NCBI GenBank assembly: GCA_020063565.1
Contig: JAICDB010000006.1
Location: 124,001 to 188,000 of the forward strand
Direction of reading: 5' to 3'
DNA from: Clostridiales bacterium
GTDB lineage: Bacteria; Bacillota; DSM-16504; Desulfitibacterales; JAICDB01
DNA: 64,000 nucleotides
Positions 3,194-32,183 of this stretch are shown piece by piece (position 1 is the first letter of the stretch; each line of letters opens with the position of its first letter). A program made the translations under genes and the position numbers. Below the pieces are notes generated by a model. That model was not told the origin of the DNA. It ran no database searches and saw only the letters and a list, made by a program, of their open reading frames with translations.

Positions 3194-5191
3194 CTAAAAA
3201 AAGCTTTTGGCAGGTTCTTCACTGTCGCCGCTGCCTCCGGAAGTTTCTGACACTTCATTTTGAACGTACACCATCGGTACCCACGTCTTTACCTGCATTT
3301 CTTCCTGCGGTATTTCCCTTTCTTCCACAGGTCCGGGTAGAAACGCCTCTTTTATCCCGGGGAGTTCGGACATGTCCCGTATCGGCAGCTTCGCCGGAAA
3401 CTGTCCCGCCTGCAAAAGAAGCGTATATCCTGTCTTCCAGCGCAGCACCTCATCGGGGGTTAATAGTTCCCTGCTCGTCTCCCCGACCGTCTCGCTCGCA
3501 TATTTTTTCTTCTGTACAGACTTCGTGTGCACGGTGTACCGCCCGGTCTTCTGTGATATTTCTCTTGCAGTATCAACATCTGCCGTTCTCAGGTAAAGCC
3601 ATGTATCACAGTTACCCATAATTATTTCAGCAGTTTTCCTGTCATAGACATGCTCAAGCTGCGCTTTAGCCTGCACAGCAAGTACAAAACGTATATTCCT
3701 GCTCCTGGCTACTGTAAACTTTTCCGCTATATTTGGTATTTTTCCTATGTTTCCAAACTCATCAAGTAAAAACCAAACCGGTACCGGTAGCTTTCCGCCA
3801 TTTTTTCTAGCTGTATTTGAAAGCGCAGCATAGACTTGATTTACAAAAAGTGAAGCTATATGCCTCCTGGCACCTGCTTCGTCCGGCATGAGCAGGAATA
3901 TTGCCGTCTTTTTTCTGCCTGCTTCTGTCGGGTCAAAATCACTCTTTGAAGTTAGCCAGGCAATTGAAGGGTCTGCAAACAACCGCAGGTGTGCTGCAGT
4001 TCCCGTGTAAATACTTGACCTCGTCCTGCTCTCGCTCAAAGCGGCGGTTCCGTATGCCATTCGTGCCGGATGGCTGTGAGGCATGTTTTCCAGCCACCCG
4101 TCCAGGCTTTCACCTCCGCGCATACCCATCTGCGTAAGCATGCGGTACGCCGACGTCATATTTTTTGCACCTTCCGGAGCCTCTATAACAGTCGCAAGAC
4201 ACAGGGCAGCTATCAAGCTTTCTTCCGCCTGGGGCCAGATGGGATCCTGCCCTGCTCCGTATGCCCAGGCAAGGATATTTCCTATTTCCCAGGCTTCTCT
4301 TGAAGCTTCTTCTATGTTTTCTGCCATATAATTACTTGCTATCCGGCTCAGCGGATTCCATCTGCTGCCCCGGGTCGGCTCCAGAAGGTCAAGCAGTACA
4401 ACGTTATATCCTTTTTCTTTCAGCCAGCCGGAAGTATGCTCATATATCTCGCCTTTCGGGTCGGAAATAATCATACTTTCTCCGACATTTCCTATGGTCC
4501 AGACAGAAGGCATGATAACCCGGCGGCTTTTCCCGCTTCCGGTGGCACCGATTATCAGTGTGTGCGGATTAAGCTTACCGGGATCCGTAAGCCATGCAGT
4601 ATTACCCTGTGAGCCAACAACAATTCCTGCTTTTTGAGGTTTTCTGAAGCTCGTTTTGTATAATGTGTTTTTTAGTTCTCCCGTTTTTCTCCACCTGCTT
4701 GAGCCGTAGGTATTTCTTTTTGATGCGTAAACATCCCTTTTATTTGGCCAGCCCGTTCTCCAAAACAGCACTAAAAGCACCGCACACAAAAGCGCAAACG
4801 GCAGCTGTGCCAGCCAGAACCCCGGCGGCCTCTCTGTGAAAAGCTCAATCGTCTTATGCCACCAGATTACCTTCCCGTCCGGTGTAGGAGTATTGAGGTA
4901 TTTAAATAACTCACTCCATGTCATCTCCGGCGTAAGCGGAGGCCAGATTGTCTTTGGAAGCATATATACCGGTACAATTCCCAGGAAATCAAGAAATGCC
5001 AGTACCGGCATAAATAGCAGTATAATTATCCTCGGTATCGTGAGTATTTTTCTTTCCATACACCACCGGATTATTTTCCCGGCAAAAATAAAAGGAAAAA
5101 AGTTTAGTTTTATCATATACTTAAGCACGCAATCACCATCCTTAATGGATATTTGCACTCGACAACCGGGTTTCAAATATAATCGCAGCAT
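3194..5191 (-). CDS. VirD4/TraG-family type IV coupling protein
   Basis: GATGSGKSRRVIMPSVWTIGNVGESMIISDPKGEIYEHT and WFLLDEFGNIGKIPN motifs; the true start may be internal (MIKLNFFPF, ~5116). Confidence 0.9.
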   Translation of the reverse strand: MLRLYLKPGCRVQISIKDGDCVLKYMIKLNFFPFIFAGKIIRWCMERKILTIPRIIILLFMPVLAFLDFLGIVPVYMLPKTIWPPLTPEMTWSELFKYLNTPTPDGKVIWWHKTIELFTERPPGFWLAQLPFALLCAVLLVLFWRTGWPNKRDVYASKRNTYGSSRWRKTGELKNTLYKTSFRKPQKAGIVVGSQGNTAWLTDPGKLNPHTLIIGATGSGKSRRVIMPSVWTIGNVGESMIISDPKGEIYEHTSGWLKEKGYNVVLLDLLEPTRGSRWNPLSRIASNYMAENIEEASREAWEIGNILAWAYGAGQDPIWPQAEESLIAALCLATVIEAPEGAKNMTSAYRMLTQMGMRGGESLDGWLENMPHSHPARMAYGTAALSESRTRSSIYTGTAAHLRLFADPSIAWLTSKSDFDPTEAGRKKTAIFLLMPDEAGARRHIASLFVNQVYAALSNTARKNGGKLPVPVWFLLDEFGNIGKIPNIAEKFTVARSRNIRFVLAVQAKAQLEHVYDRKTAEIIMGNCDTWLYLRTADVDTAREISQKTGRYTVHTKSVQKKKYASETVGETSRELLTPDEVLRWKTGYTLLLQAGQFPAKLPIRDMSELPGIKEAFLPGPVEEREIPQEEMQVKTWVPMVYVQNEVSETSGGSGDSEEPAKSFF

Positions 5192-6014: not shown

Positions 6015-6107
6015 CTAATTATCATTTTTGTGTCCGCACACCGGGCAGACATCCTCAGGCCAGCTGCAATCCTTAAATCCGCAGTTACTACAGTAAAAGC
6101 AGCTCAC
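6015..6107 (-). CDS. 30-aa zinc-ribbon microprotein VSCFYCSNCGFKDCSWPEDVCPVCGHKNDN
   Basis: GTG start with GGAGGGTGG RBS; six Cys in CxxC pairs; near-identical paralogue of the same length at 23207-23299. Confidence 0.7.
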   Translation of the reverse strand: MSCFYCSNCGFKDCSWPEDVCPVCGHKNDN

Positions 6108-6152: not shown

Positions 6153-6415
6153 TTTTTGTTTTCGGCCCACCCACGAATTTTGGTTGGAGGCGGAGAAAAT
6201 CAAGGGATGGCGGGAAGGATACCGGACCGGAGCTCAGCGGAGGGAGGATATGTTCACGCCAGCGCAAGCCTTTAGCCCCTTGATTTTCGGAGCCGGAAGC
6301 CTATACTTTTGATCGCCGAAAATTGTTTTTTATGGCCTGGGAATGGCGTTGGAACTGCAGGGAACCGGAAGCTCCTGACCGATTGGAGGGAGGTAGCCAT
6401 GAGCAGGGCTTCCTT
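6153..6415 (+). ncRNA. candidate structured RNA, copy A
   Basis: Strongly similar to 23352-23619; shared stem AAAATCAAGGG...CCCTTGATTTT, hairpin TTTCGG-AG-CCGGAA and GGAGGGAGGTAGCC...GGCTTCC 3' hairpin; no ORF. Confidence 0.7.
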
Positions 6416-6502: not shown

Positions 6503-6535
6503 AAGAATAAAGACCACAAAAGAACACAAAAAAAG

Positions 6536-6594
6536 AAGAAGTATGATGCCTGACTCCTAAAAAGGAATACATACCAGGCATGATACTTCTTTCT
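6536..6594. terminator. bidirectional hairpin, dispersed family copy A
   Basis: GAAGTATGATGCCTG...CAGGCATGATACTTC just beyond the relaxase stop; same arms at 23683-23741 and 24956-25008. Confidence 0.65.
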
Positions 6595-6616
6595 TTGTGG
6601 TATGTCTATGCAGCAA

Positions 6617-7807
6617 TTAGAGTCGTTCTTCCTCTATGCCCATATCCCGCTTTCTGCGGATTTCTTCCTGACGTCTTGCCTTTTCTTCCGCTCTCATGCT
6701 TGCAAGCTCTGCCTGCGCTTCGGCTCGCAGACGTTCTTTTTCAATTACTCGAAAGGCGGCCCTGTACGTACTGCGCGGTATTTTTTCCTTATCTGCACCG
6801 GCTATGAATTTTGTGTTTTGTTGTTGTATCCCTGCAGCTTCACGTAAAAGGATGTTTGCAACTCTATCCCTCACGTCATCGTATGCCTTCTGCCATGCTT
6901 CGTCGCCTCTCTCTTTTGAATACGTATATATCCTGGCCATCTTTCTGACATTGTCCTCCATCTCTTTTAAAGGCTTTTCCATCTGCTTTTTCTGAAGCAC
7001 AAAATCCGCAATCCTTCTTACTTCTTCTTTCACTTCCTGCGGCATATATTTTAATGCAACCCTGCCCCTGCCCGGCATTTTCTCTGCCAGATAAGTCAGC
7101 TTTTTATGGAGCTCATCCAGGTCATCTTTATAAAACCTGGGCGGAAAACTTTCACCTATTGGATCTTCTGCCTGCATCTCAAGCTCCATCCTTTTCTCCA
7201 GTTTACCTATATCTTGTACCGCTTCTTTTACAGTGTCCAGCATTGCGTTTCTTGCAGCCGTTTTCTGTATCGCCAGTTCCCTCCTGTATTCCCCGAGAAC
7301 CTCCTGCGCAATTCCCCTGCGGAATTCCTTCATCTCCTTTGCACTGAGATTTCCCCTGCGTCTTACTCCTTCGGGCCACACAAGGACGTGCGCATGCGGG
7401 TGGCCGGGTTCCCTGTGAAAGGCCGCCAGCCACTTCAGTTTATCTTCTTCAATACCAACGGCGCGGGAAAATCGGGACATACACCTGCGCGTAAGGTCCT
7501 CCCAATCCTTTCTTTCCGTATATCCCATCAGTTTTGCGTCATCTTCCCTCAGGCTAATTATCAGCCGCCAGGAAACTCTGTTATCTTTTTCCCTGGCAAG
7601 TTTTATTCCTTCCTTTAAAGAAGGCAACCTGTCCGGTTCAGGACCGAACAGGCCGGTAGAACGCGGGCGGTCGCCCATGTAACCAATATGCTGAATATCC
7701 TTTTCTGCACGTGAAGCAATATATCTCACATGACCTCCGTCTTTTGCGTTGTAATTTATATTAAATTTGACTTTTGTAAAGATAGTTGATTTATGGTTTA
7801 GCTTCAT
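6617..7807 (-). CDS. MobP-like conjugative relaxase
   Basis: 396 aa; GGHVRYIASR N-terminal region and HREPGHPHAHVLVW three-histidine motif. Confidence 0.85.
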   Translation of the reverse strand: MKLNHKSTIFTKVKFNINYNAKDGGHVRYIASRAEKDIQHIGYMGDRPRSTGLFGPEPDRLPSLKEGIKLAREKDNRVSWRLIISLREDDAKLMGYTERKDWEDLTRRCMSRFSRAVGIEEDKLKWLAAFHREPGHPHAHVLVWPEGVRRRGNLSAKEMKEFRRGIAQEVLGEYRRELAIQKTAARNAMLDTVKEAVQDIGKLEKRMELEMQAEDPIGESFPPRFYKDDLDELHKKLTYLAEKMPGRGRVALKYMPQEVKEEVRRIADFVLQKKQMEKPLKEMEDNVRKMARIYTYSKERGDEAWQKAYDDVRDRVANILLREAAGIQQQNTKFIAGADKEKIPRSTYRAAFRVIEKERLRAEAQAELASMRAEEKARRQEEIRRKRDMGIEEERL

Positions 7808-14744: not shown

Positions 14745-17700
14745 TTAGTAACTTCTCAGCCTCGTCTTAAGTTTATTGAGTTGGCTCCCACTTACCTGAA
14801 CTGTCTTCATGTCAGTTACTATCCTGACAGTCCCGTCATATCTTTCTTTATAAGCCGTAAATTCAATAGTATACGTCCCATCGGACATGTCATAGGGTAT
14901 AATGACCACCCTGTCGTAGTCACCGCCGAGTACATCGTGTCTCGTCTCCCAATGGTTTATGTCAGGAGGAGTTCCGCCGATGGGATATTCAGGCACGAGC
15001 TCTGTCACGTTCGTACTGGCAAAACCGTTTTCACCTGCGTCCCACCACATTTTTGCTTCAACTTTGAAGGCCCTTCCTTCCGTATCAGCCGATAGAATCA
15101 TTGCCTCTCCGGCAGCATAGATGTTTTTATCGCTTTCCCCTTCTACATAAAGTGGATCCTCCACTACAAGTGTCTTCTCACACCAGTCAGACCACAGGGC
15201 CGGCGACAGCCCGTTGGGAGACGCGTCCTTTACTTTCAGGGCTATTATATACGTCCCGGCGCCGTAATCACCCCACCCCGTGGACTCAAATATTGAAGGT
15301 GGTTTTGTGTTGTGATATTCAGCCAGGATATTGTTGTTTTCATCCCTTACCTGCCATACTCTCTCGGTTATCCCGGCCCCATCGGGATCGTAAGAATTGT
15401 CGTTATAAGTCACCGGTTCATCGGCTGCCACCGGGTTGGGCAATATAGAAAACTGTGCAACTGGTTTTTGATTGCCCGGTATGACTGATAACATCCTTAC
15501 AAACCAATCAGACCATTGAGCTGTCATTGATGCTAAAGCTGGCTGATCTTTTACTCTAAGCCTTATATCATACGTTCCTGTACCCAGTGTTTCAAAGTCT
15601 GTAGGTTGTCCATTTGCCCAGCTGCTTCCATTTTTCCTATACTGCCATTCTCTTGCTACAATCGGATCGCCGTCCGGGTCATAAGATGTATCTGTATATT
15701 TTGCTTCTACATCTTGTGGTAACGGATTAGGCGATACAGTAAACTGTGCAACTGGCTTATTATTAGATGGTACGACATTTACTGTCTGATAAAAGGCTTC
15801 AGACCATTCACCGTTTTCATCTTGCACTTTTAGCTCTATTCTATATTCTCCTAACTGATTATATACGCTACTTGGAAAACTGCTGACGGCATTATGCCAC
15901 GAACCACCAGGGTCCTGGTAACGCCACTGATATTGAACTAAATTATCCCCGTTAGGATCATAGGAAAAATCATCATAACTTAATGTTTTTCCTAGTGGAA
16001 GCGGATTAGGACTTACAGTGAATTGAGCAACAGGAGGTATATTGCTTCCCGTGTCTACTACTTTAACATTATAATCGGACCACACTCCTTCAACGTCTTT
16101 TACCCTGTACGAAATGACATAAGTTTTATTTTTTTCTAAAATTGAAGGTTGTCCAATATTCCATGAGGTTGTTGTGGCTTCCTTCCATTTCCACTCTCTT
16201 TCTATTATTCCTTTCCCTGGTTCGGTCTGATGATCCATGTCATAAGCATTATCTGTTATATCTATGCTGTAGTTTGTTGCATTTTCTGTTAATTGAATTG
16301 AATATAAAGCCAGAGGTTTACGGTGAACATATACAGTTAAATGATCTGCAGGAATATCCGACCACTTCCTGTAATTTGTAAACCTTTCATCATCTTTAGG
16401 GTTGTCCTTTGCCTGGAATACTACATCATACTTACCGACTTTATCGAATGAGTATATAGGGCCAGATATAAATTGATCGTGAAAACCGGCTAAACCCAGG
16501 CTGTTATCAAAGTAATATGGGTCATGGACATACTTCCAGCGTCTTTCAATTTCCGGGTCGTTTTCTGTATCACTGTAAAAAGTATTATAAGTTACTTCTT
16601 CATTAAGCAGCACATACACTGTTTTATATCCTTGAGTTGTATTTACTGTATTAACTATATAGTCTGTTACGTTTGATATTGCCTGATCCATATTACTGTT
16701 ATAAGTAAAAAAGCCTTTATTATTATTTTCCTGTATTATATTCTCTGCTTGAATTTTATTATCATTTGTTCCAAGTACACCAAAGTATATGCCATCATTG
16801 ATTAGACGTGAAAGGATTAGATAATGCTGTTCTTGATCTTTTAATTCTGCATATTCTATATTGTTTATGCCTATAATAAACTTTTTTGTACCTTGTCTCC
16901 ACGTAACACGATCTAATACTTCATCTATTGTTTCATAATTTTTCACATAAGCAATAATATCTAAATAGAAATTATCAACACAATAATCGTTACCAGCTCG
17001 AAAATATCTAATGTTATTAATAGGTATATCAGCTTTATAAAATGTTTTACTATATAATTGATAAGCATTTGCTTTAAATTGTCCTACTTTATACCATGTA
17101 TTACCGTCATTGCTTACATAACAATATACATTTATAAGATCATGACTTCCATAGCCCGTGTTAGCTCTAAATGTAATTTCTTGTATTTCTTCTATTCCAA
17201 TAGTTCTACCTATGTCAATATATCTATTATTTGCACCGAAGTAATATTGACCTGTGTCCCAACCACCATCTGCAGTATTCCCTCCACCTTCTCCTCCATA
17301 ATTACCTGCAAAAGTTGACTCTATATTAATTCTATTACTGTAGTTAAAAACCTTTGTTTCTATTGTGCTTTCTATATTAGGAACTTCAATTGAATAGTCT
17401 ATTTGGGAATTTTCTAATTTGGGCTTCATCTGTGAATTAACAACTGCTTCTAGATTATCTAATACTGTATCATTTACTTCTTCTCCAATAGTAAATACTA
17501 TATCTGCTTTTTTCTTGGTTATTGCTTCAAAACTGGTAATTGGAGCTACATTTATTACCTCCACCGTTTTTTCTGCTAATGGTTTTGAATAAGTGTCAGC
17601 TTTTTTAATATCTTCTGGGCCTATAAAATCCGAAATGGTAGACTGTCCAAAACTTTCTTCAATCTCTAATTCAAACTGATATTTACCTATATCTGTTACA

Positions 17701-19868
17701 TATAGCGTAGGAGTAAGTAGGTTGTTATTTTCATCAATTATTTGCCAGGTTTCATCTGTAAAGCTCCCGTCATTATCGCTGTCATAACGATATTTCCATA
17801 CTCTTTTAGATATATCATCACCATCATAACTAACTGATCTGTCAGTTAAATCAATTCGTGCTTTATTGTTATTATCGGGATCTCTTAACACTGTTTTAAT
17901 TACTTTAAAATCTGCTACAGGTGGTTCATCAGGTCTTATTTCAATAGCTTCTTCATACCATTCTGAAGTGTGGCCTGCTGTATTTTTAACTGTAAGTCTA
18001 ACGGTATAAGTCCCCGGCTCTTTAAACAAAACTTCCCGTATGCTTAAATCGCCACTACTGTGTATTTTTACTGCGTCTTGACTTACTCCGTCCGGAGGAA
18101 TAAACTCCCACTGTGTTTCTTCCCAAACAATAGGATAACGGTCGCTAGTATAACTATCAGTTGCATCAAATACTACTTTCCTATTTTGCTTCGAATCTCC
18201 TGTCCAGTAGAAATATGCTTCTGGTATGGCTGGTTTAACTGTTATAGTCTTTTCCGTAGTATCGCTTAGACCCCATTCATCTTCTACAGTAAGGGTTATT
18301 ATATATTCCCCTTCTTGATCGAAATAAACCGTACTGCTTTCGCCACTTAAAGTGCCTATAACTGTATCAGAAGAGGTTACAGTCCACTCATAACTAGCAA
18401 TACTACCGTCAGGATCGTAAGAATCACTTTCTACAGTTATATTTTCCCCTTGCATAACTTCATCAGGCACATCAATTTTTGCCACTGGAGGTTTATTGCT
18501 AATTTCAATAGTTTCTGTATCTGTATCAGAAGCTCCTTGTTCGTCTGTAACTTCCAGGGTAACTGTATAAGTACCCTGTTCCATAAAGGTAATCGTACCA
18601 CCATCAAAACCCAAATTTTCACTTACACCACTCATAGGGGATATATCCCAGGATACATCTACGATTTCTCCATCATCATAGGAATCATTTTCTACAGTTA
18701 CAGTATCACCCTGTTTAGCATTAGAGGGCATATCAATTCTAGCTGTTGGTGGACTATTCGGCGGTGGCGGTGGTGGAGGCGGTGGTCCTGCTTCTTCTAC
18801 AAACACAGTTTTAGTCATGCTATCGAAATTGTCTTTGTTATCCCAAACTGTAAGGGTAACGTCATATGCACCTGAATCATTAAATGTTATGTCCGGCTCC
18901 ATAGCCCAGGAACTGGATATATCTACACCGGAGGAAGGAGAAACATCCCATTCATAAGCAACTAAATAATTATCTCCCCCGGCTGTAGATTGATTATCTG
19001 TAGTTATTGTATCACCAGCAGCCACATTCTGCTGAATAGAAAAATAAGCTGTTGGCCCGGAACTATCGCTTGGCAGTGGTGGCGGAGGAGGTTGTGAGCC
19101 ATCTGCAACAGGAAACGTCAAGTTTGCACTATGTTCTCTACCAACCCCATCTGTCACTTCTAAGTCAAGTTCATAACTCCTGGCTTCCGGAAATGTATAA
19201 TCTATTTCTATCCATGCAGTGTTTTGACTTTCATGCCCGCTGTCTACAAGACTGCCATCAATATAAAATTCCCAGTCTGTACCTGGGTATGTCCAGCTCG
19301 GCACATTAGAAGAAGGATTTATTTTAATTGTTGTTGTTTCTCCAGCTTTTACACTCCAAGAAGTAGGGTATATCCCCCCTCCTGGCCCTTCGGTTCTTAC
19401 AACATAAAATTCATCTTTATCTGCATCAAATTCGGGAATATACCCTCCGCATTTATGCACTACATCTCTAATATAAAATTCTATTCTCGAATTTCCTTCG
19501 CTATCTTCTACCATTCGTTCTGGTACAGCATGATCTGAATACCAATCCCAATTTCCACCTAATTCCTCTACCCAATGCTTAATTGGGCTAACGTGCGTAT
19601 AGTTTCTCCAATTACTAGGTCTACCACTTCGCATTTCTGCAAAAGCTGTTGTAATACCTATAATTTCTCCTGTATCATTATCAACTGCCTGCCAATCACC
19701 GTCTACCTTTAATTCCATTGGGCTACTATAAGTATCCCAACATATTTCTCCTGGTTCAAACACTTCATTACCATCATTAAAAATAATATCTGCAAATACT
19801 GGTGTAGTTAAAGAAAAAAACTGCAATAAAATTAACAATAAAGCTAAATATTTTTTTAAATATTGCAT
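14745..19868 (-). CDS. secreted multi-PKD-domain surface protein, 1707 aa
   Basis: Signal peptide, about nine PKD-like repeats (PPVAQFTVSPNPLPLG...SYDPNGD), polyproline linkers, discoidin-like region near GGWDTGQYYFGANNRYIDIG. Confidence 0.85.
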   Translation of the reverse strand: MQYLKKYLALLLILLQFFSLTTPVFADIIFNDGNEVFEPGEICWDTYSSPMELKVDGDWQAVDNDTGEIIGITTAFAEMRSGRPSNWRNYTHVSPIKHWVEELGGNWDWYSDHAVPERMVEDSEGNSRIEFYIRDVVHKCGGYIPEFDADKDEFYVVRTEGPGGGIYPTSWSVKAGETTTIKINPSSNVPSWTYPGTDWEFYIDGSLVDSGHESQNTAWIEIDYTFPEARSYELDLEVTDGVGREHSANLTFPVADGSQPPPPPLPSDSSGPTAYFSIQQNVAAGDTITTDNQSTAGGDNYLVAYEWDVSPSSGVDISSSWAMEPDITFNDSGAYDVTLTVWDNKDNFDSMTKTVFVEEAGPPPPPPPPPNSPPTARIDMPSNAKQGDTVTVENDSYDDGEIVDVSWDISPMSGVSENLGFDGGTITFMEQGTYTVTLEVTDEQGASDTDTETIEISNKPPVAKIDVPDEVMQGENITVESDSYDPDGSIASYEWTVTSSDTVIGTLSGESSTVYFDQEGEYIITLTVEDEWGLSDTTEKTITVKPAIPEAYFYWTGDSKQNRKVVFDATDSYTSDRYPIVWEETQWEFIPPDGVSQDAVKIHSSGDLSIREVLFKEPGTYTVRLTVKNTAGHTSEWYEEAIEIRPDEPPVADFKVIKTVLRDPDNNNKARIDLTDRSVSYDGDDISKRVWKYRYDSDNDGSFTDETWQIIDENNNLLTPTLYVTDIGKYQFELEIEESFGQSTISDFIGPEDIKKADTYSKPLAEKTVEVINVAPITSFEAITKKKADIVFTIGEEVNDTVLDNLEAVVNSQMKPKLENSQIDYSIEVPNIESTIETKVFNYSNRINIESTFAGNYGGEGGGNTADGGWDTGQYYFGANNRYIDIGRTIGIEEIQEITFRANTGYGSHDLINVYCYVSNDGNTWYKVGQFKANAYQLYSKTFYKADIPINNIRYFRAGNDYCVDNFYLDIIAYVKNYETIDEVLDRVTWRQGTKKFIIGINNIEYAELKDQEQHYLILSRLINDGIYFGVLGTNDNKIQAENIIQENNNKGFFTYNSNMDQAISNVTDYIVNTVNTTQGYKTVYVLLNEEVTYNTFYSDTENDPEIERRWKYVHDPYYFDNSLGLAGFHDQFISGPIYSFDKVGKYDVVFQAKDNPKDDERFTNYRKWSDIPADHLTVYVHRKPLALYSIQLTENATNYSIDITDNAYDMDHQTEPGKGIIEREWKWKEATTTSWNIGQPSILEKNKTYVISYRVKDVEGVWSDYNVKVVDTGSNIPPVAQFTVSPNPLPLGKTLSYDDFSYDPNGDNLVQYQWRYQDPGGSWHNAVSSFPSSVYNQLGEYRIELKVQDENGEWSEAFYQTVNVVPSNNKPVAQFTVSPNPLPQDVEAKYTDTSYDPDGDPIVAREWQYRKNGSSWANGQPTDFETLGTGTYDIRLRVKDQPALASMTAQWSDWFVRMLSVIPGNQKPVAQFSILPNPVAADEPVTYNDNSYDPDGAGITERVWQVRDENNNILAEYHNTKPPSIFESTGWGDYGAGTYIIALKVKDASPNGLSPALWSDWCEKTLVVEDPLYVEGESDKNIYAAGEAMILSADTEGRAFKVEAKMWWDAGENGFASTNVTELVPEYPIGGTPPDINHWETRHDVLGGDYDRVVIIPYDMSDGTYTIEFTAYKERYDGTVRIVTDMKTVQVSGSQLNKLKTRLRSY

Positions 19869-23206: not shown

Positions 23207-23299
23207 TTAATTATTATTTTCGTGCCCGCACACCGGGCAAACATCCTCCGGCCAGTTGCAATCTTTAAAACCGCAGTTCGTACAGTAAAAGCAACTCAC
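23207..23299 (-). CDS. 30-aa zinc-ribbon microprotein VSCFYCTNCGFKDCNWPEDVCPVCGHENNN
   Basis: Same length and nearly identical to 6015-6107; GGGAGGGGTGG RBS. Confidence 0.7.
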   Translation of the reverse strand: MSCFYCTNCGFKDCNWPEDVCPVCGHENNN

Positions 23300-23351: not shown

Positions 23352-23619
23352 TTTTTGTTTTCGGTCCAACCACGACTTTTGGCTGGAGGTGGAGAAAATC
23401 AAGGGGTGGCGGGAAGGATACCGGACCGGAGCGTTAGCGGAGGGAGGATATGTTCACGCCAGGCTTTAGCCCTTGCCCCTTGATTTACGGAGCCGTAAGC
23501 CTATAATATTGACCGCCAAAAACAAGTTTTTTTGCCTTGGTCATGGCGTTGGAGCTGGAGGAAAACGGAAGCTCCTGACCGACCAGAGGGAGGTAGCCAT
23601 GAGCAGGGCTACCTTTTTC
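23352..23619 (+). ncRNA. candidate structured RNA, copy B
   Basis: Homologous to 6153-6415; ends in a strong intrinsic terminator AGGTAGCC-ATGAGCAG-GGCTACCT-TTTTCTT. Confidence 0.75.
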
Positions 23620-23682
23620 TTATAACCCTGAAGGAATACCGCCACAGTGCTATAGATTTTAGAACTCAAAGTAATACAAAAA

Positions 23683-23741
23683 AGAGAAGTATCATGCCTG
23701 ACTACTCAAATGTGAATACAGCGCAGGCATGATACTTCTCT
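23683..23741. terminator. bidirectional hairpin, dispersed family copy B
   Basis: Perfect GAAGTATCATGCCTG...CAGGCATGATACTTC arms with T-rich flank on both strands. Confidence 0.7.
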
Positions 23742-23755
23742 TATCTTTTTTTTAC

Positions 23756-24859: not shown

Positions 24860-25010
24860 TTGACCAACGGGAGGTAACCATTTTCTTATAACCCTGAAGG
24901 AATGCCGCCACTGTGCAATAGATTTTGGACCCCATAGAAGTACAAAAAAAGAAGAAGTATGATGCCTGATTACCCAAACGAGAATACATAACAGGCATGA
25001 TACTCCTCTT
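24859..25010 (+). repeat. 3' fragment of the structured-RNA/hairpin element, copy C
   Basis: TGACCAACGGGAGGTAACC...TTTTCTTATAACCCTGAAGGAATGCCGCCAC...GAAGTATGATGCCTG...CAGGCATGATACT, matches 23576-23745 with terminator hairpin deleted. Confidence 0.7.
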
Positions 25011-25620
25011 ATTTCATTGTTCTGCTTAACATAACAAACCACTGCAGGTAAACAAATGACCATAATACCTTTAAAGATATTTTATACGGCCACATTGCCC
25101 ATGGCAGGATTAACGGAAACAATACTAGCAGAGTAAATAACAGTAAACCCTGTGGGGTATTACTTAATTTATTCGGTAAAAAGGACCATATTTCTGTGAA
25201 AATTAAAGTTATTCCGATCCATACAAAAAGAGGCATCCCGATTATTAAATCCATTTTTTCTGTAAAAAATAGTTCATCCAGACTAATTGGAATGAAAGTA
25301 ATTTGAAGGAAAGTTATTAGTGAAAAAGAATTATTAGATATACCATATACTATATAGATTACACACATGTATATCAAAACACCTAATACTAATTTACCCG
25401 TTTCATAATCAGGAGGTTTTTTTTCATGGTTAAAAATACTGTATTTTTTATTTTCATCGGAATATCGCTTCTTTGGTTTATAATTTATATAATTTTCAAA
25501 TTCTCTTATTTTATCTTTTTGCTCGGATTGATTCTTATTTCCTATATTTCTATCAAACTTATTTCGCCCGGAATTAGCTTTTATTTCACTTTGACCAGAA
25601 AAAAAAGTCAAGAATGGCAC
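25009..25620 (-). CDS. hypothetical multi-TM membrane protein
   Basis: ~203 aa, same architecture as 23756-24400; GTG or TTG start. Confidence 0.5.
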   Translation of the reverse strand: MPFLTFFSGQSEIKANSGRNKFDRNIGNKNQSEQKDKIREFENYINYKPKKRYSDENKKYSIFNHEKKPPDYETGKLVLGVLIYMCVIYIVYGISNNSFSLITFLQITFIPISLDELFFTEKMDLIIGMPLFVWIGITLIFTEIWSFLPNKLSNTPQGLLLFTLLVLFPLILPWAMWPYKISLKVLWSFVYLQWFVMLSRTMK

Positions 25621-26089: not shown

Positions 26090-26788
26090 TTACCTCCCCA
26101 TCACAAACAAACTCCCTTTCTGCTCATAGTCCTTGAGCGTTATTGCTTCTTCGGGGATCAACCCCACAGTCACCGCAGCCGGTATCTTATCCTTTGAAGC
26201 AAATTTATTATCGCTGTTTTTCTGTCTATCGTCCCTGCCGAGCTTATTACCTTCCTTATCGGTAATATTAAAAATCTGAACTTTTTCAAATAGAACCTGT
26301 GCTTTATATTTTTCCATTACCGAAGCAGAAGTTTTAGCCGGATCAACCAATCCCGGCTTCGGGACAAAACCAATATCGATATAATCTCCGATATCAATTG
26401 CCCCTGCCAGTGAATTGATCAGGGTAGTGGAAAAAGTCACTTTCCTCATACCTTCTGCAAGGACCGGAATCTTCTTTCGTGCAATGTCACCCGTAAAAAT
26501 AGGCCTCCCGGCTGCTATCTCCCTGGAGGCCACCATCCCTTTCAGTATCGAGGCATCGGTAACCATTGAGTTACTCATCATATTTTTAGGAAAATACCTG
26601 TATTCAACATTATCCTTTGTAAAAGAAGAATTCAATGATATATCTTCCTTAGCATACAAAACGGGAACTTCTTCAACTTCCGCATAGACACTGCGGATAT
26701 AATTCGTCTCCGCATATGCCACAACAATCCCCAGAACAATACAGAGCACTATCAGTACAAGCTTCTTTCTCCTGAAAAGCAAGCGCAA
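26090..26788 (-). CDS. CpaB/SAF-domain Flp pilus assembly protein
   Basis: N-terminal TM, SAF-like VPVLYAKEDISLNSSFTKDNVEYR; adjacent to tad genes. Confidence 0.75.
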   Translation of the reverse strand: MRLLFRRKKLVLIVLCIVLGIVVAYAETNYIRSVYAEVEEVPVLYAKEDISLNSSFTKDNVEYRYFPKNMMSNSMVTDASILKGMVASREIAAGRPIFTGDIARKKIPVLAEGMRKVTFSTTLINSLAGAIDIGDYIDIGFVPKPGLVDPAKTSASVMEKYKAQVLFEKVQIFNITDKEGNKLGRDDRQKNSDNKFASKDKIPAAVTVGLIPEEAITLKDYEQKGSLFVMGR

Positions 26789-26795
26789 TCCTCCT

Positions 26796-27272
26796 TCAAT
26801 CTACAAAAATAGAGTCACTGTCCCTGTGAACGGTAATATCTACCGTCTCTCCCAGCAGCCCTTTAAAGGCCAGCCTCTTTACAGGCACCGTAACTACCGC
26901 ATGAATGGCCGTCTCGGTAATCTCGTCTCCTTTCGGGCAGAGAGCCGGATAATCTCCGGGATTGTAAATAATAAACTCATCAACACTGATAGGACCTGCG
27001 GCAACCCCTTCCAGGTTTGCTGCGAGATAAACGTCAAATACGTTTCTGGCACTTGGTTCAGGCAGGACAACCTCTCCGTAACCCAGTCTTTCTTTATCCG
27101 CCGTCCCCAGGGCAGCCAGTTCGGCCCCGATTACAGCGTCATCTATCTTATCGTACATAATCAACAAAGCCCTGTATTCAAGTATATATAAACCCAATAG
27201 AAAGGTAACAATTCCAAAAAGCAGGCCGGCAAGCATGACTGCCGACCCTTTTCTGTCTGTGATAATTGACAT
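26796..27272 (-). CDS. Tad pilus-associated pseudopilin-like membrane protein
   Basis: N-terminal RKGSAVMLAGLLFGIVTFLLGLYILEYR; in tad operon. Confidence 0.5.
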   Translation of the reverse strand: MSIITDRKGSAVMLAGLLFGIVTFLLGLYILEYRALLIMYDKIDDAVIGAELAALGTADKERLGYGEVVLPEPSARNVFDVYLAANLEGVAAGPISVDEFIIYNPGDYPALCPKGDEITETAIHAVVTVPVKRLAFKGLLGETVDITVHRDSDSIFVD

Positions 27273-27284
27273 ATCACCCCTCCG

Positions 27285-27710
27285 TCAGTTCTCATAATAC
27301 TTGGATGTAGATTTGAGCGGCCCGTAGACCATTGAAGTATCTTCTTCTATCTTCTGTATCCCCCCTATCCCGAAGGTATAACTTATCCGGGTATAGTCAT
27401 ATGTGATCTGTACAGCTACTTCTTCACCGAACCCGACAGGATGGGGAGTATAGTCCAGGTGGATTTTACTTCTTTCAAAATTCTGATCTTCAAGGTAATC
27501 AAGTATCCTGTTCTTATCTTCCGACGTTAACCCTCCGGTAACCTCCATTCTGAGAAGTGCTTCCCTAGCAGTTTGCTTTAAAATGTCGTATTTGTGCATA
27601 TCCATATAATTGTGAAAGGTATTAAACACGGGAAAAAGAATAATGGGAAGCACGAGAATGAAGGCAACTATTTCCGCACTCCCCTTTTTATTAAACATAA
27701 ATTCTATCAC
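27285..27710 (-). CDS. TadE-like pseudopilin
   Basis: NKKGSAEIVAFILVLPIILFPVFNTF class III-like leader. Confidence 0.6.
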   Translation of the reverse strand: MIEFMFNKKGSAEIVAFILVLPIILFPVFNTFHNYMDMHKYDILKQTAREALLRMEVTGGLTSEDKNRILDYLEDQNFERSKIHLDYTPHPVGFGEEVAVQITYDYTRISYTFGIGGIQKIEEDTSMVYGPLKSTSKYYEN

Positions 27711-27910
27711 TTACTTAATTGCTCACCTAATTCCTGATTAAGATTATCGGTACCTTGCTGAATCGTTGATCCAATATCTTTTATTTTAGGTGCCAGTGCA
27801 AGAATTACAAAAATAAGTATTATAGCAAAAGCAATTATCTCAGCACTCCCTCTCTTATCCTTTAAAAACTTCTTAACCCTTTTAATTTGATTATTAATTT
27901 TACAAAGCAT
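27707..27910 (-). CDS. Flp-type major pilin candidate
   Basis: 67 aa, DKRGSAEIIAFAIILIFVILALAPKI. Confidence 0.6.
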   Translation of the reverse strand: MLCKINNQIKRVKKFLKDKRGSAEIIAFAIILIFVILALAPKIKDIGSTIQQGTDNLNQELGEQLSK

Positions 27911-27932
27911 AAAAATACCTCCTTAAATTTTT

Positions 27933-28790
27933 TTAATTAAAAATCCCTTCCAGTCCAGTAGAAACACTGGCAAAGAAGGGATATAAAAACATCGAAGCAA
28001 TACCTACCGCCATCAATGCACAGGCTATCAATACCTTGTAATCCATTAACTTATCTTCCCTGTGAAGTTTGGCTATTACATTGTCATGCTGCGCCGACGC
28101 CAGGGACTCCAGCATTCCCCCGGCCCTGCCTGTAATATCTCCCTGCAACAGGGCAAGGGACAGGATGTCCGTATCATATAGTCCGATATTTTCCCGGAAC
28201 CGAGTCAGCGCCTTCACCCTGTCCTTTGTAATGGCATATTCGGCAGCAAGAAGCGTCAGTTCTTTTTTCAGTTCCTTTCCTTTCGTAAATTCTGCCGCCA
28301 GCCTGAATACTTCTCCAATATCTATTCCCGCGGCAGCCGCTGCCTCGAAAATATCCGTCACTTCGGGGATCTCGGATTCAATTTCTTTCTTCCTGTCTTT
28401 TATCGCCATATTTAGAAATAGATCCGGAAGTATGAAAGAAAAAAGAGCTACCCCGATCTTCCAGTACAAAGGGGTATCCCACGTAGCCTGAACCGCAAAG
28501 CTCAGAAAAGGAACAATAATTTTTAAAGCTATAAATACTTCCGGCGTCATTTTAAATGGTCTTCCGGCCATTCGTATCTTTTTCTCTATTTCCTCCCTGT
28601 CAAAATACCTGGAAAATTTTCTGCCCAGACTTTCAACTGCCTTTTTATGCCTGTTCCTCCCTCCCTTTACTTCAATCAACCTTAAAAACCTGCTGCTTCT
28701 CAAGCGAAAATCCAGCAGCAAGTAGGCCAGCAGGCAAAAAAAAATGCTTTTTATAAAAAACAATATTTCACCCCCTGTTGAGTGATGCAA
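27933..28790 (-). CDS. tadC: TadC-like type II secretion F-domain protein
   Basis: Polytopic protein with T2SSF-like region; operon position after tadB. Confidence 0.75.
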   Translation of the reverse strand: MHHSTGGEILFFIKSIFFCLLAYLLLDFRLRSSRFLRLIEVKGGRNRHKKAVESLGRKFSRYFDREEIEKKIRMAGRPFKMTPEVFIALKIIVPFLSFAVQATWDTPLYWKIGVALFSFILPDLFLNMAIKDRKKEIESEIPEVTDIFEAAAAAGIDIGEVFRLAAEFTKGKELKKELTLLAAEYAITKDRVKALTRFRENIGLYDTDILSLALLQGDITGRAGGMLESLASAQHDNVIAKLHREDKLMDYKVLIACALMAVGIASMFLYPFFASVSTGLEGIFN

Positions 28791-29691
28791 TCATATAAAC
28801 CCCTGCCCCCACTGCCAGCAGGTTACCCACGGCTATCAACTGCCCTGTCAAAGTAGAACGCAGAACAATTGCCGTCTCGGGGTTCATAGTATATGCCGAA
28901 ATAAAAGACACCAGGTCAAGAATAATCACCCCGGATATGACAATCGTCCCCGTCAGGGCTGACGCCGCCATAATGGAGCGGGAACTTTCCAACCTCCTCG
29001 CCTGCTCTATAAGCTTTCTGATTGCCATTCTGTAATCACCCCCGTATACAAGATGGAGTTTTGTAAACTTGATGAATTTACCGAACTCCCTGTCCCGGAT
29101 TTGTTTTTCAAGGTCATCCAGGCAGTCAATAAATTCAAGGTTTGACCGTCTGTATTTCATGACGGTACTTTTAATGAATGACTTCAGAGGTTCGGTCGTA
29201 TAGTCAGCCGACCTTTCAAAAGCATAGATAATATCACCCGATATATTGAAAAAACCTTCAAAAGTATTGAGAAATCCCAGGTAGAGCCTCCTTATTTTCT
29301 TTGTATTTGCAGCAGCCAGAATATCAAGGGCAACTCCAGGCAAAAAACCGGTCATAATACCTATAAAAAGTGATGTTATCAGGCTGCCGGTGATCCTGTA
29401 ACCCAGGAATAATATTAAAAGCGAAATAACCATTACTGTAATTATGAACATAGAAATGTCCATAAAGGGCAAATATTTCTGTATATTCGATGCCTGAATG
29501 GAAATATCGATTTTATCTATAATTTTACCTGTATATCCCTTTCTTTTCCCGTTCCAGAGCAACCTGTCTGCAGTCAGCTTTAACTGCTTCATTCTAAATC
29601 TTTCAAGCCCGGTTTTTTTTATGCTGACGATTACAAGATACATAAAAAGGGCAATAAATACTGCTTTCAAAACGAGTAAGTAATTCATCAA
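28768..29691 (-). CDS. tadB: TadB-like type II secretion F-domain protein
   Basis: GDYRMAIRKLIEQARRLESSRSIMAASALTGTIVISGVII; operon position. Confidence 0.75.
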   Translation of the reverse strand: MMNYLLVLKAVFIALFMYLVIVSIKKTGLERFRMKQLKLTADRLLWNGKRKGYTGKIIDKIDISIQASNIQKYLPFMDISMFIITVMVISLLILFLGYRITGSLITSLFIGIMTGFLPGVALDILAAANTKKIRRLYLGFLNTFEGFFNISGDIIYAFERSADYTTEPLKSFIKSTVMKYRRSNLEFIDCLDDLEKQIRDREFGKFIKFTKLHLVYGGDYRMAIRKLIEQARRLESSRSIMAASALTGTIVISGVIILDLVSFISAYTMNPETAIVLRSTLTGQLIAVGNLLAVGAGVYMIASLNRG

Positions 29692-30920
29692 ATACCGCTC
29701 ACCTTCTTTCCGGTCTCTATCATTCCGTTATCACTGTCAAAGACAGTTCTATATTCAATCTCTTTTCTGTTGTTGTTGTATCCGCAGACCTCCTTGATTT
29801 CGTGAATTTTATAATCCTTCATATAAATAACTATATCAAGAGAACCGGCAAGGAGCTGCTTCAGATATTCTCCCGAAAGGTCCGTATCAGCCCTTTTCAT
29901 TAAAAGCACTAAGCGATCTATTGTTTCACCAGCGGAATTTGAATGGACTGTAGCCATGGAACCCGTATGTCCCGTAAACACCGCGTTGAAAAAGTCAAAT
30001 GCCTCCCGGTCCTTCATCTCTCCGATAAAAAAACGGTCTAGGCTCATCAGAAGCCCGAACCGCGTCAGATCAAATAATGTATACTCTTTCCCTCCGAACC
30101 CGTCTGTTATCTTTACCAGCTGCGATACTATATCTGGATGTTTAACATTAATTTCATTTGTCTCCTGTATCAAAAGCCCCCTTTCCTCATACGGAACTTT
30201 GTGAATTAGCGCACCCAGAAGCGTTGTCTTCCCGGAACCTCCTTTTCCTGCTATGACTATGGTTTTCCTTTCTTTAACCCGCTCAACAAGATACGCTTCA
30301 GTATTCTCGTCAAGCATCTTCTGTCCGACCAGTTCTTCCAGGGAATACCCGGTACCCTGGTTTCTGATAGTAATCGAAGGGCTGCCCACGGTGACCGGCG
30401 GTATGGATACCACTATCCTTAAATTTCTTTCCCTGTCGGTTACAACGGTCTGGGCCTCATCTTCATTGATCCTTCCTCCACAGATTGCCACGATCTTCTT
30501 GCAAAAGTTTAAAAGCCTTTCGTTATCACCAAAAGAAACTGGTATCTTAAATTTTTTACCCTTCTTCTTGATGAATACCGTATCAGGAGCATTTATGATC
30601 ACATCAGACACCATTTTATCCTGGATATAGGGTTCAATGGGACCGTAACCAAAAATGCTGTTCATAGCCTCCTTTATGACATCTTCTCTTTTATATTTCT
30701 TGGCCTCTTCTATATCATCAAGTACGGATACTATTTCTGCCTCAAGAAGTTCTTTCGGTTTCTTCCCCGCTTCGACTTCGGCAATGAGATTCGACTGCTC
30801 GCTCACAAGCCTGGCGGTTAGTTCGTCTATAATACACCGGATACCATCACCGGCTTTACAGAAATGTCCCCGGGTATCATACCCGGCTTCAAAAGGGTTA
30901 ATCAGCGCCAACAGGTTCAC
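29688..30920 (-). CDS. tadA: TadA/CpaF pilus assembly ATPase
   Basis: VIAGKGGSGKTTLLGALIHKVPYEERGLLIQETNEI, FIGEMKDREAFDFFNAVFTGHTGSMATVHSNSA. Confidence 0.92.
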   Translation of the reverse strand: MNLLALINPFEAGYDTRGHFCKAGDGIRCIIDELTARLVSEQSNLIAEVEAGKKPKELLEAEIVSVLDDIEEAKKYKREDVIKEAMNSIFGYGPIEPYIQDKMVSDVIINAPDTVFIKKKGKKFKIPVSFGDNERLLNFCKKIVAICGGRINEDEAQTVVTDRERNLRIVVSIPPVTVGSPSITIRNQGTGYSLEELVGQKMLDENTEAYLVERVKERKTIVIAGKGGSGKTTLLGALIHKVPYEERGLLIQETNEINVKHPDIVSQLVKITDGFGGKEYTLFDLTRFGLLMSLDRFFIGEMKDREAFDFFNAVFTGHTGSMATVHSNSAGETIDRLVLLMKRADTDLSGEYLKQLLAGSLDIVIYMKDYKIHEIKEVCGYNNNRKEIEYRTVFDSDNGMIETGKKVSGI

Positions 30921-31781: not shown

Positions 31782-32183
31782 TCAGAAAGGCACATCATCA
31801 TCCGGCAGGTCTATCCCATTCGGTTCAAATACGTTATTTTCATCGCTTTTTCCACGTCCATTTTTTGGCTTATCAAGAAATACCACTTTATCAGCAACAA
31901 CTTCTGCTGCCTGACGCCTGACGGCCTCATTATCTTCAAAATATTTAATCTGCAACCTTCCTTCAATTGATACTAATCTTCCCTTGCTCAAATTTTTAGC
32001 TACAATTTCAGCAAGCTTTCTCCAGATTACAATTTTAATAAAATCTGCTTCCTTCTCCCCCTGCTGATTTTTAAAAGGTCTGTCTACCGCAAGATTGAAA
32101 CCTGCAACGGCATTACCGTTTGTCGTATACCTCAGTTCCGGGTCTCTCGTCAACCTCCCAATCAGGATAACTTTGTTCAGCAT
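31782..32183 (-). CDS. ssb: single-stranded DNA-binding protein
   Basis: MLNKVILIGRLTRDPELRYTTNGNAVAGFNLAVDRPF...DLPDDDVPF C-terminal tip. Confidence 0.92.
   Translation of the reverse strand: MLNKVILIGRLTRDPELRYTTNGNAVAGFNLAVDRPFKNQQGEKEADFIKIVIWRKLAEIVAKNLSKGRLVSIEGRLQIKYFEDNEAVRRQAAEVVADKVVFLDKPKNGRGKSDENNVFEPNGIDLPDDDVPF

Follow-up and report, generated by a model that had tools for sequence, protein, structure and literature searches.

What is the long non-coding repeat that occurs at 6153-6415 and again at 23352-23619 of the window, i.e. of the whole 64,000-nt stretch of Clostridiales DNA analysed here, and does it act as RNA or as DNA? The first-pass annotation, in which these two nearly identical blocks had been noticed, took them for copies of one undescribed structured RNA of about 265 nt, located on a mobile element and fixed on the plus strand by a terminator. 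Both blocks (copies A and B, Table 1) are present, and a search of the same genome revealed a third one (copy C, G000:C27:121060-121294) on the same contig, 2.9 kb to the left of the window. The repeats are indeed located on a mobile element, a conjugative one that encodes a MobP3 relaxase and a VirD4 protein.

Table 1. Repeat copies, neighbouring terminators and selected genes, with positions in the window
Feature	Position	Strand	Basis
Copy A domain I, complete single-strand-DNA hairpin	6159..6322	+	fold with DNA parameters
Copy A outer clamp TTTTCGGC / GCCGAAAA	6159-6166 / 6315-6322	+	fold with DNA parameters
Copy A model match	6179-6309	+	cmsearch, 86 bits
Copy A -35 stem, 5' strand (GAAAATCAAGGG)	6195..6206	+	stem covaries in homologues
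Copy A conserved apical domain GGATACCGGAC...GGAGGATATG	6217..6252	+	invariant among pattern matches
Copy A -35-like hexamer TTGATT, paired	6280..6285	+	
Copy A -10-like hexamer TATACT, unpaired	6302..6307	+	pairing probability to 5' arm 0.02
Copy A domain II, second hairpin domain	6332..6409	+	found in copies A–C only
Copy B domain I, complete single-strand-DNA hairpin with outer clamp	23357..23523	+	cmsearch 23378-23509, 94 bits
Copy B conserved apical domain	23416..23452	+	
Copy B -35-like hexamer TTGATT, paired	23480..23485	+	
Copy B -10 hexamer TATAAT, 16 nt past the -35, unpaired (0.07)	23502..23507	+	
Copy B domain II, second hairpin domain	23534..23609	+	
Terminator-like hairpin with T-run, copy B only	23592..23619	+	absent in copies A and C
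Long hairpin, nearly perfect and followed by a T-run, that likely terminates the gene run to the right of copy A	6530..6600	-	sequence, repeat families D3/D10
Terminator hairpin of like kind right of copy B	23678..23745	-	sequence, repeats D3/D8
30-aa zinc-ribbon micro-ORF, first gene leftward of copy A	6015..6107	-	GTG start after GGAGGG; conserved in copy B
30-aa zinc-ribbon micro-ORF, first gene downstream of copy B	23207..23299	-	translation
VirD4-like coupling protein (CD1115 family), gene run left of copy A	3194..5191	-	NF045973, 370 bits (cut-off 250)
MobP3-family relaxase	6617..7807	- (opposite to hairpins)	NF041499, 205.5 bits (cut-off 150)

The presumed single unit of about 265 nt is structured, but it consists of two adjacent hairpin domains, of which only domain I is widespread. 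Domain I, the conserved core, is an imperfect hairpin of about 165 nt. Domain II follows domain I on its right side in all three copies and was found in this element only; it contains the conserved GGCGTTG...CTGACCGA...GGTAGCCATGAGC (6332-6409 and 23534-23609), and its stem differs between copies, being TGGCC/GGCCA in copy C and GGAGCT/AGCTCC in copy B. The terminator of the first-pass annotation represents the 3' part of domain II in copy B. A terminator-like hairpin exists there, but copies A and C contain GGTAGCC...GGGCTTCC/AAGCCTTCC with neither a clean stem nor a T-run and, because a clean terminator is restricted to copy B, it does not fix the strand. The long stem AAAATCAAGGG/CCCTTGATTTT exists and covaries across many genomes. 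The short hairpin TTACGG-AG-CCGTAA, which had been put forward as well, is confined to copies A and B and is missing from copy C; in the hairpin family this stretch is the spacer that separates a -35 from a -10 motif.

Each copy in the window is set off from the preceding genes by a minus-strand terminator-like hairpin. Near-identical long hairpins of the type AGAAGTATCATGCCTG...CAGGCATGATACTTCT with T-runs are found at 6530-6600, 23678-23745 and 24946-25021 as well as to the right of copy C, and they likely terminate minus-strand gene runs. The stretch 24877-25021, which is 84–86% identical to the one following copy B and is devoid of any family hairpin, is an orphan that is possibly the remnant of a further copy.

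Comparison with Rfam yielded no match at the gathering threshold and no credible one at E<=10 over the repeats; the matches at E<=10 obtained with copies A and B were placed nearly all on terminator hairpins and were regarded as chance. No Rfam match to ROOL, GOLLD, OLE, raiA, HEARO or other large bacterial RNAs was found in or near the repeat, which resembles these RNAs in being a conserved structured non-coding element; some of them are likewise found on mobile DNA. A structure set by hand for ten model sequences showed changes on both sides of the pair at 16 of 35 pairs, compared to 5.7 in shuffles (none of 500 was as high) and at most 5 in slid controls. The notion of an undescribed structured family was thus supported.

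For the identification of homologues, two short conserved apical blocks were used, which had been revealed by L004, a relative from another family. The resulting pattern GGATACCGGACN{4,34}GGAGGATATG, which includes no promoter sequence, was run over 84,980 genomes and recovered 17 true homologues, among others from Thermoanaerobacter, Caldanaerobacter, Thermoanaerobacterium, Pelotomaculum and Desulfovirgula, while five matches (L017, L020, L021, L022 and L025) were dismissed as chance. As MAFFT misaligned the arms when applied to all homologues, a covariance model (R1) was built from ten short ones. This model matched 30 of 399 genomes of the phylum, often with 2–4 and maximally four copies per genome, successive copies being kilobases apart on one contig. 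The weakest matches (L060, L062, L068, L074 and L075) contain no good -10 and may be false or degenerate, and weak matches on the reverse strand represent the palindrome viewed from behind. No homologue was obtained from phage and plasmid records by blastn or from viral contigs by a strict pattern. The apical domain differs between subfamilies (GGATACCGGAC..GGAGGATATG; GGATAAATGGAGGGGACC..GGAGGCCGTTTATG; GGAATAGCGGAC..GGAGCATATG; GGATACCGCAG..CGAGGATATG), a block of ATA/TAT pairs being invariant across them.

All members have a common layout, in which an outer clamp is followed by an internal loop, the -35 stem, variable linkers and the apical domain. Their 3' arm comprises the -35 as a paired TTG, the -10 as an unpaired TATAAT in the internal loop, and the closing clamp. 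A hexamer agreeing with TATAAT in five or six positions is present on the hairpin strand in 42 of 47 copies (perfect in 27), whereas the mirrored strand has one in 1 of 47 copies and shuffling of the arms produces one in 6.6% of cases. R1 itself includes the TATAAT columns, which enriches its matches for this hexamer; the 17 loci of the apical pattern are free of such enrichment, and 16 of them match TATAAT in at least five of six positions. Folding of 42 copies with DNA parameters gave predicted pairing probabilities of 0.90 for the -35, 0.24 for the -10 and 0.84 for the clamp beyond the -10. The conserved part of the -35 stem is CAAG/CTTG, i.e. the TTG, and its outer pairs covary (AAT/ATT, GGT/ACC, ACG/CGT, GCA/TGC, CGG/CCG). 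In the predicted fold, the hairpin restores both a -35 and a -10 by pairing within one strand. In the duplex, the leftward strand retains TTGACC and has no -10 at the respective position.

The spacer between -35 and -10 measures 16 nt in the three copies described above as well as in the Thermoanaerobacter-like group, 18–20 nt in many others and 12 nt in one small group, so that it is canonical in the subfamilies with 16–18 nt only. In L013, a member of the 20-nt group, part of the excess is an unpaired bulge of the 3' arm according to the folds inspected; this is not the case in L009. The apical domain hardly varies over wide distances, although a simple promoter does not need it upstream of the -35. 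It may bind RNA polymerase, SSB or a protein of the element. GGAGGATATG and GGAGGTAGCCATG resemble a Shine-Dalgarno sequence followed by a start codon; short leader peptides were nevertheless rejected, because GGAGGATATG is invariant within the apical fold and the linker lengths following it vary freely between homologues.

For the analysis of the gene context all loci were oriented so that the hairpin is a plus-strand feature. Of 37 loci with a gene at most 300 nt to the left, 29 have the closest such gene on the minus strand (binomial p 0.0008), its start codon being typically 26–207 nt away from the hairpin; the eight loci in which a plus-strand ORF is nearest on the left include several that are probably spurious calls. 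To the right, 37 of 49 loci likewise have a minus-strand gene as their closest neighbour. As the genes on both sides are mostly minus-strand genes, the hairpin heads a gene run that is read off the hairpin strand. The left genes include those for ArdC, SSB, HEPN/nucleotidyltransferase, the toxin-antitoxin components MazF, HicB and MqsA, RadC-JAB, VirD4/TraG and TraC; ArdC, SSB, HEPN/nucleotidyltransferase, MazF, HicB and VirD4 are of kinds that have been reported for the leading regions of plasmids (PMC11541004). Some toxin-antitoxin loci contain an ordinary leftward promoter between hairpin and gene (TTGATA-17-TAAAAT in L065/L069, TAGAAA-16-TATAAT in L093/L097), suggesting that these genes are not silent as duplex and that the hairpin would add early expression there. 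The micro-protein next to copies A and B has the sequence VSCFYCxNCGFKDCxWPEDVCPVCGHxNxN, and its coding region overlaps larger ORFs called there.

In addition to the MobP3 relaxase and the CD1115-type coupling protein, the element in the window encodes a ParM-like protein and a VirB11/TadA-like ATPase (29688-30920). Further minus-strand genes of the element are an SSB-like protein (31782-32183, by sequence) and, at 14745-19868 and 26090-30920, a 1707-aa protein with repeated PKD-like domains (recognised by eye) alongside Tad-like pilus genes. The MobP3 relaxase gene and the hairpins are on opposite strands on all 11 contigs that contain both (from G000, G229, G384, G250, G371, G040, G390, G099, G114, G113 and G036; two-sided binomial p 0.001). 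The relaxase was found in 17 of 30 genomes with hairpins and in 2 of 22 without a hairpin match (Fisher p 0.0005). The hairpins are about 0.6–28 kb away from its gene and occur on both sides of it, not in one region only. At G150:C5:30717-32175 and G226:C11:229735-239490 they are about 1 kb and 9 kb away from a tmRNA gene; as this gene is a common integration site, such a proximity is consistent with integrated elements.

A functional RNA, whichever strand it is made from, should show an excess of G-U pairs on that strand. Covariation in the stems of the family consists almost wholly of Watson-Crick exchanges. In the fixed structure of the R1 alignment (56 distinct rows, 1565 cells) 43 G.T and 45 A.C combinations were counted, and 21 and 24, respectively, in the -35 and apical helices alone. 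As a yardstick, SRP RNA from the same genomes, counted on its Rfam structure, gave 118 G.T and 28 A.C out of 792. Since G.T and A.C are about equally rare, unlike in SRP RNA, neither strand looks like RNA. Pairs chosen by RNAalifold for the ten model sequences do show an excess of G.T over A.C (22 versus 4 with RNA parameters, 10 versus 3 with DNA parameters), which is a caveat, but the fixed-structure counts were preferred because the energy model itself selects G.T pairs. The structured plus-strand RNA of the first-pass annotation could account for the strong conserved fold, the terminator-like end of copy B and the RNA folding of this copy (z -2.9 against shuffles). However, the minus strand of copy B folds just as well (z -3.2) and copy A does not exceed shuffles (z 0.17), so that folding energy alone is uninformative with regard to the strand. 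Given also the lack of a G-U excess, a terminator that is not conserved, a conserved TATAAT within the supposed RNA and the position of most copies upstream of genes on the other strand, we regard this reading as very unlikely. A 5' leader of the leftward operons made from the minus strand, such as a riboswitch or an antitermination element, would fit the position directly upstream of minus-strand genes in most loci, and Gram-positive conjugative elements with an antitermination system are known from work cited in PMC8708921. Such a leader should have raised the A.C count of the hairpin strand, which is 45 versus 43, and it leaves the TATAAT of the other strand, an unpaired ATTATA in the leader, unexplained; it appears less likely still. 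The repeat is, then, probably not an RNA gene.

We consider it likely instead that the repeat is a single-strand-DNA promoter, belonging to a new Gram-positive family which works like the Frpo of plasmid F and is unrelated to it in sequence. The observed anatomy, strand asymmetry, covariation, orientation and kinds of genes lead us to propose the following model. The conjugative element would enter the recipient as one strand, presumably the plus strand of the window, and the repeat would fold into the hairpin in vivo. The 3' arm would serve as non-template, with the TTG of the -35 paired, the TATAAT held open in the internal loop as if pre-melted, and the clamp beyond the start site double-stranded. 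Since the promoter motifs are on the 3' arm, the 5' arm would be the template, and host RNA polymerase starting at the hairpin would leave it leftward along the same transferred strand. Minus-strand genes for ArdC, SSB, toxin-antitoxin pairs, the coupling protein and the zinc-ribbon micro-protein might thereby be expressed before the second strand is made, and the RNA from the hairpin may also prime its synthesis. Once the DNA is double-stranded the leftward promoter would be lost, because the minus strand has no -10 there. Several observations weigh against the model: the varying distance from -35 to -10, hairpins on either side of the relaxase gene, the ordinary leftward promoters at some loci, the eight loci with a plus-strand ORF as nearest left neighbour, the almost invariant apical loop and the G.T excess among the RNAalifold pairs. 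A more specific version adds that the apical domain is a dedicated receptor for RNA polymerase, SSB or an element-encoded protein, in a separate and widespread Clostridia-type class unrelated to Frpo, and that the early programme (anti-restriction, SSB, toxin-antitoxin and transfer genes) is on only during the single-stranded state; for this version we see the chances as evenly balanced.

The same physical design, a folded strand with promoter motifs, is expected of a single-strand origin (sso), in which RNA polymerase would be recruited by the hairpin of the transferred or rolling-circle strand chiefly for synthesis of the second-strand primer, the nearby genes being incidental. An orientation-specific sso with several hairpins exists in the Gram-positive ICEBs1 (PMC4595007), and 2–4 copies across one element would suit repeated priming. 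Against this reading speak the position of the hairpin a short way in front of genes coded on the opposite strand, the terminators that end the run of genes before it, and gene kinds typical of early expression. An sso as the main role is therefore unlikely, although it deserves some weight, and priming and promoter roles are compatible with each other. Finally, TTGACC-16-TATAAT of the subfamily with 16-nt spacers would be a good sigma-A promoter in the duplex too, and the repeat could be an ordinary rightward double-strand promoter with a palindrome upstream of it that yields a small or antisense RNA. The spacers of 18–22 nt seen in roughly half of the family are poor in duplex, the nearest right gene is usually on the opposite strand, and a covarying partner strand would not be needed, making this the least probable of the readings considered.

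The single-strand-DNA promoter proposed here can be compared with several known systems. In plasmid F, Frpo is a transferred-strand stem-loop whose folding recreates -35 and -10 in front of leading genes (PMC9849209), and Frpo has been found by homology in 6,006 conjugative elements (PMC11541004). An anti-CRISPR gene placed under Frpo in the leading region increased transfer into a Cas9 recipient about 225-fold (PMC11541004). The Clostridia hairpins resemble the Frpo/ssi of plasmids F and ColIb-P9, which are on the transferred strand, in being long and imperfect and in occurring in at least two copies kilobases apart (PMC9849209, PMC11541004), as well as in the restoration of -35 and -10 by intrastrand pairing and the position upstream of genes templated by the folding strand, including ssb and anti-restriction genes. 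Both Frpo regions of F, when inspected, were located between genes templated by the T-strand, which corresponds to the position of the Clostridia hairpins. In contrast, the Clostridia hairpin has about half the length of the F fold, a near-consensus TATAAT and a conserved apical domain of its own, and it occurs in Clostridia-type hosts together with a MobP3 relaxase instead of in Enterobacteria with MOBF. The F leading region showed no similarity to R1 (best match 12.5 bits, E 0.18), and Frpo1 and Frpo2 of F gave no blastn match longer than 15 nt to the Clostridia hairpins. Judged by sequence, these hairpins are not members of the Frpo family.

Among Gram-positive systems, sso1 of the conjugative element ICEBs1 and the sso of rolling-circle plasmids are also orientation-specific hairpins of single-stranded DNA (PMC4595007). 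In layout, sso1 consists of three stem-loops adjoining the relaxase gene nicK whereas here several copies precede genes and the -10 is in a loop. EGeRS1 of the pLS20 family, conjugative plasmids of Gram-positive bacteria, is likewise a structured region that recurs in front of establishment genes (PMC8708921). However, it is far longer (conserved part about 325 nt, up to 751 bp), contains no recognisable promoter in the fold and is located where the transferred strand is not the template, and its authors judged a reading as single-strand-DNA promoter to be highly unlikely (PMC8708921).

Detailed descriptions of such promoters exist for a few enterobacterial plasmids only. A survey that started from five known sequences detected no significant similarity to Frpo on the Gram-positive island it used as an example (PMC11541004), and in the literature searched we found no family of single-strand-DNA promoters for Gram-positive elements. 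The locus also provides a warning that comparative RNA searches can return single-stranded-DNA elements; checking whether G.T and A.C are equally rare is a simple way to recognise them. Most likely, Clostridia and their relatives possess a separate and widespread family of single-strand-DNA promoters. Being recognisable by sequence and present in many copies, it would serve as a marker for early-expressed anti-defence genes in Clostridia and as a handle on the transferred strand, and it would offer a compact tool in the form of a promoter expected to fire leftward only when single-stranded.
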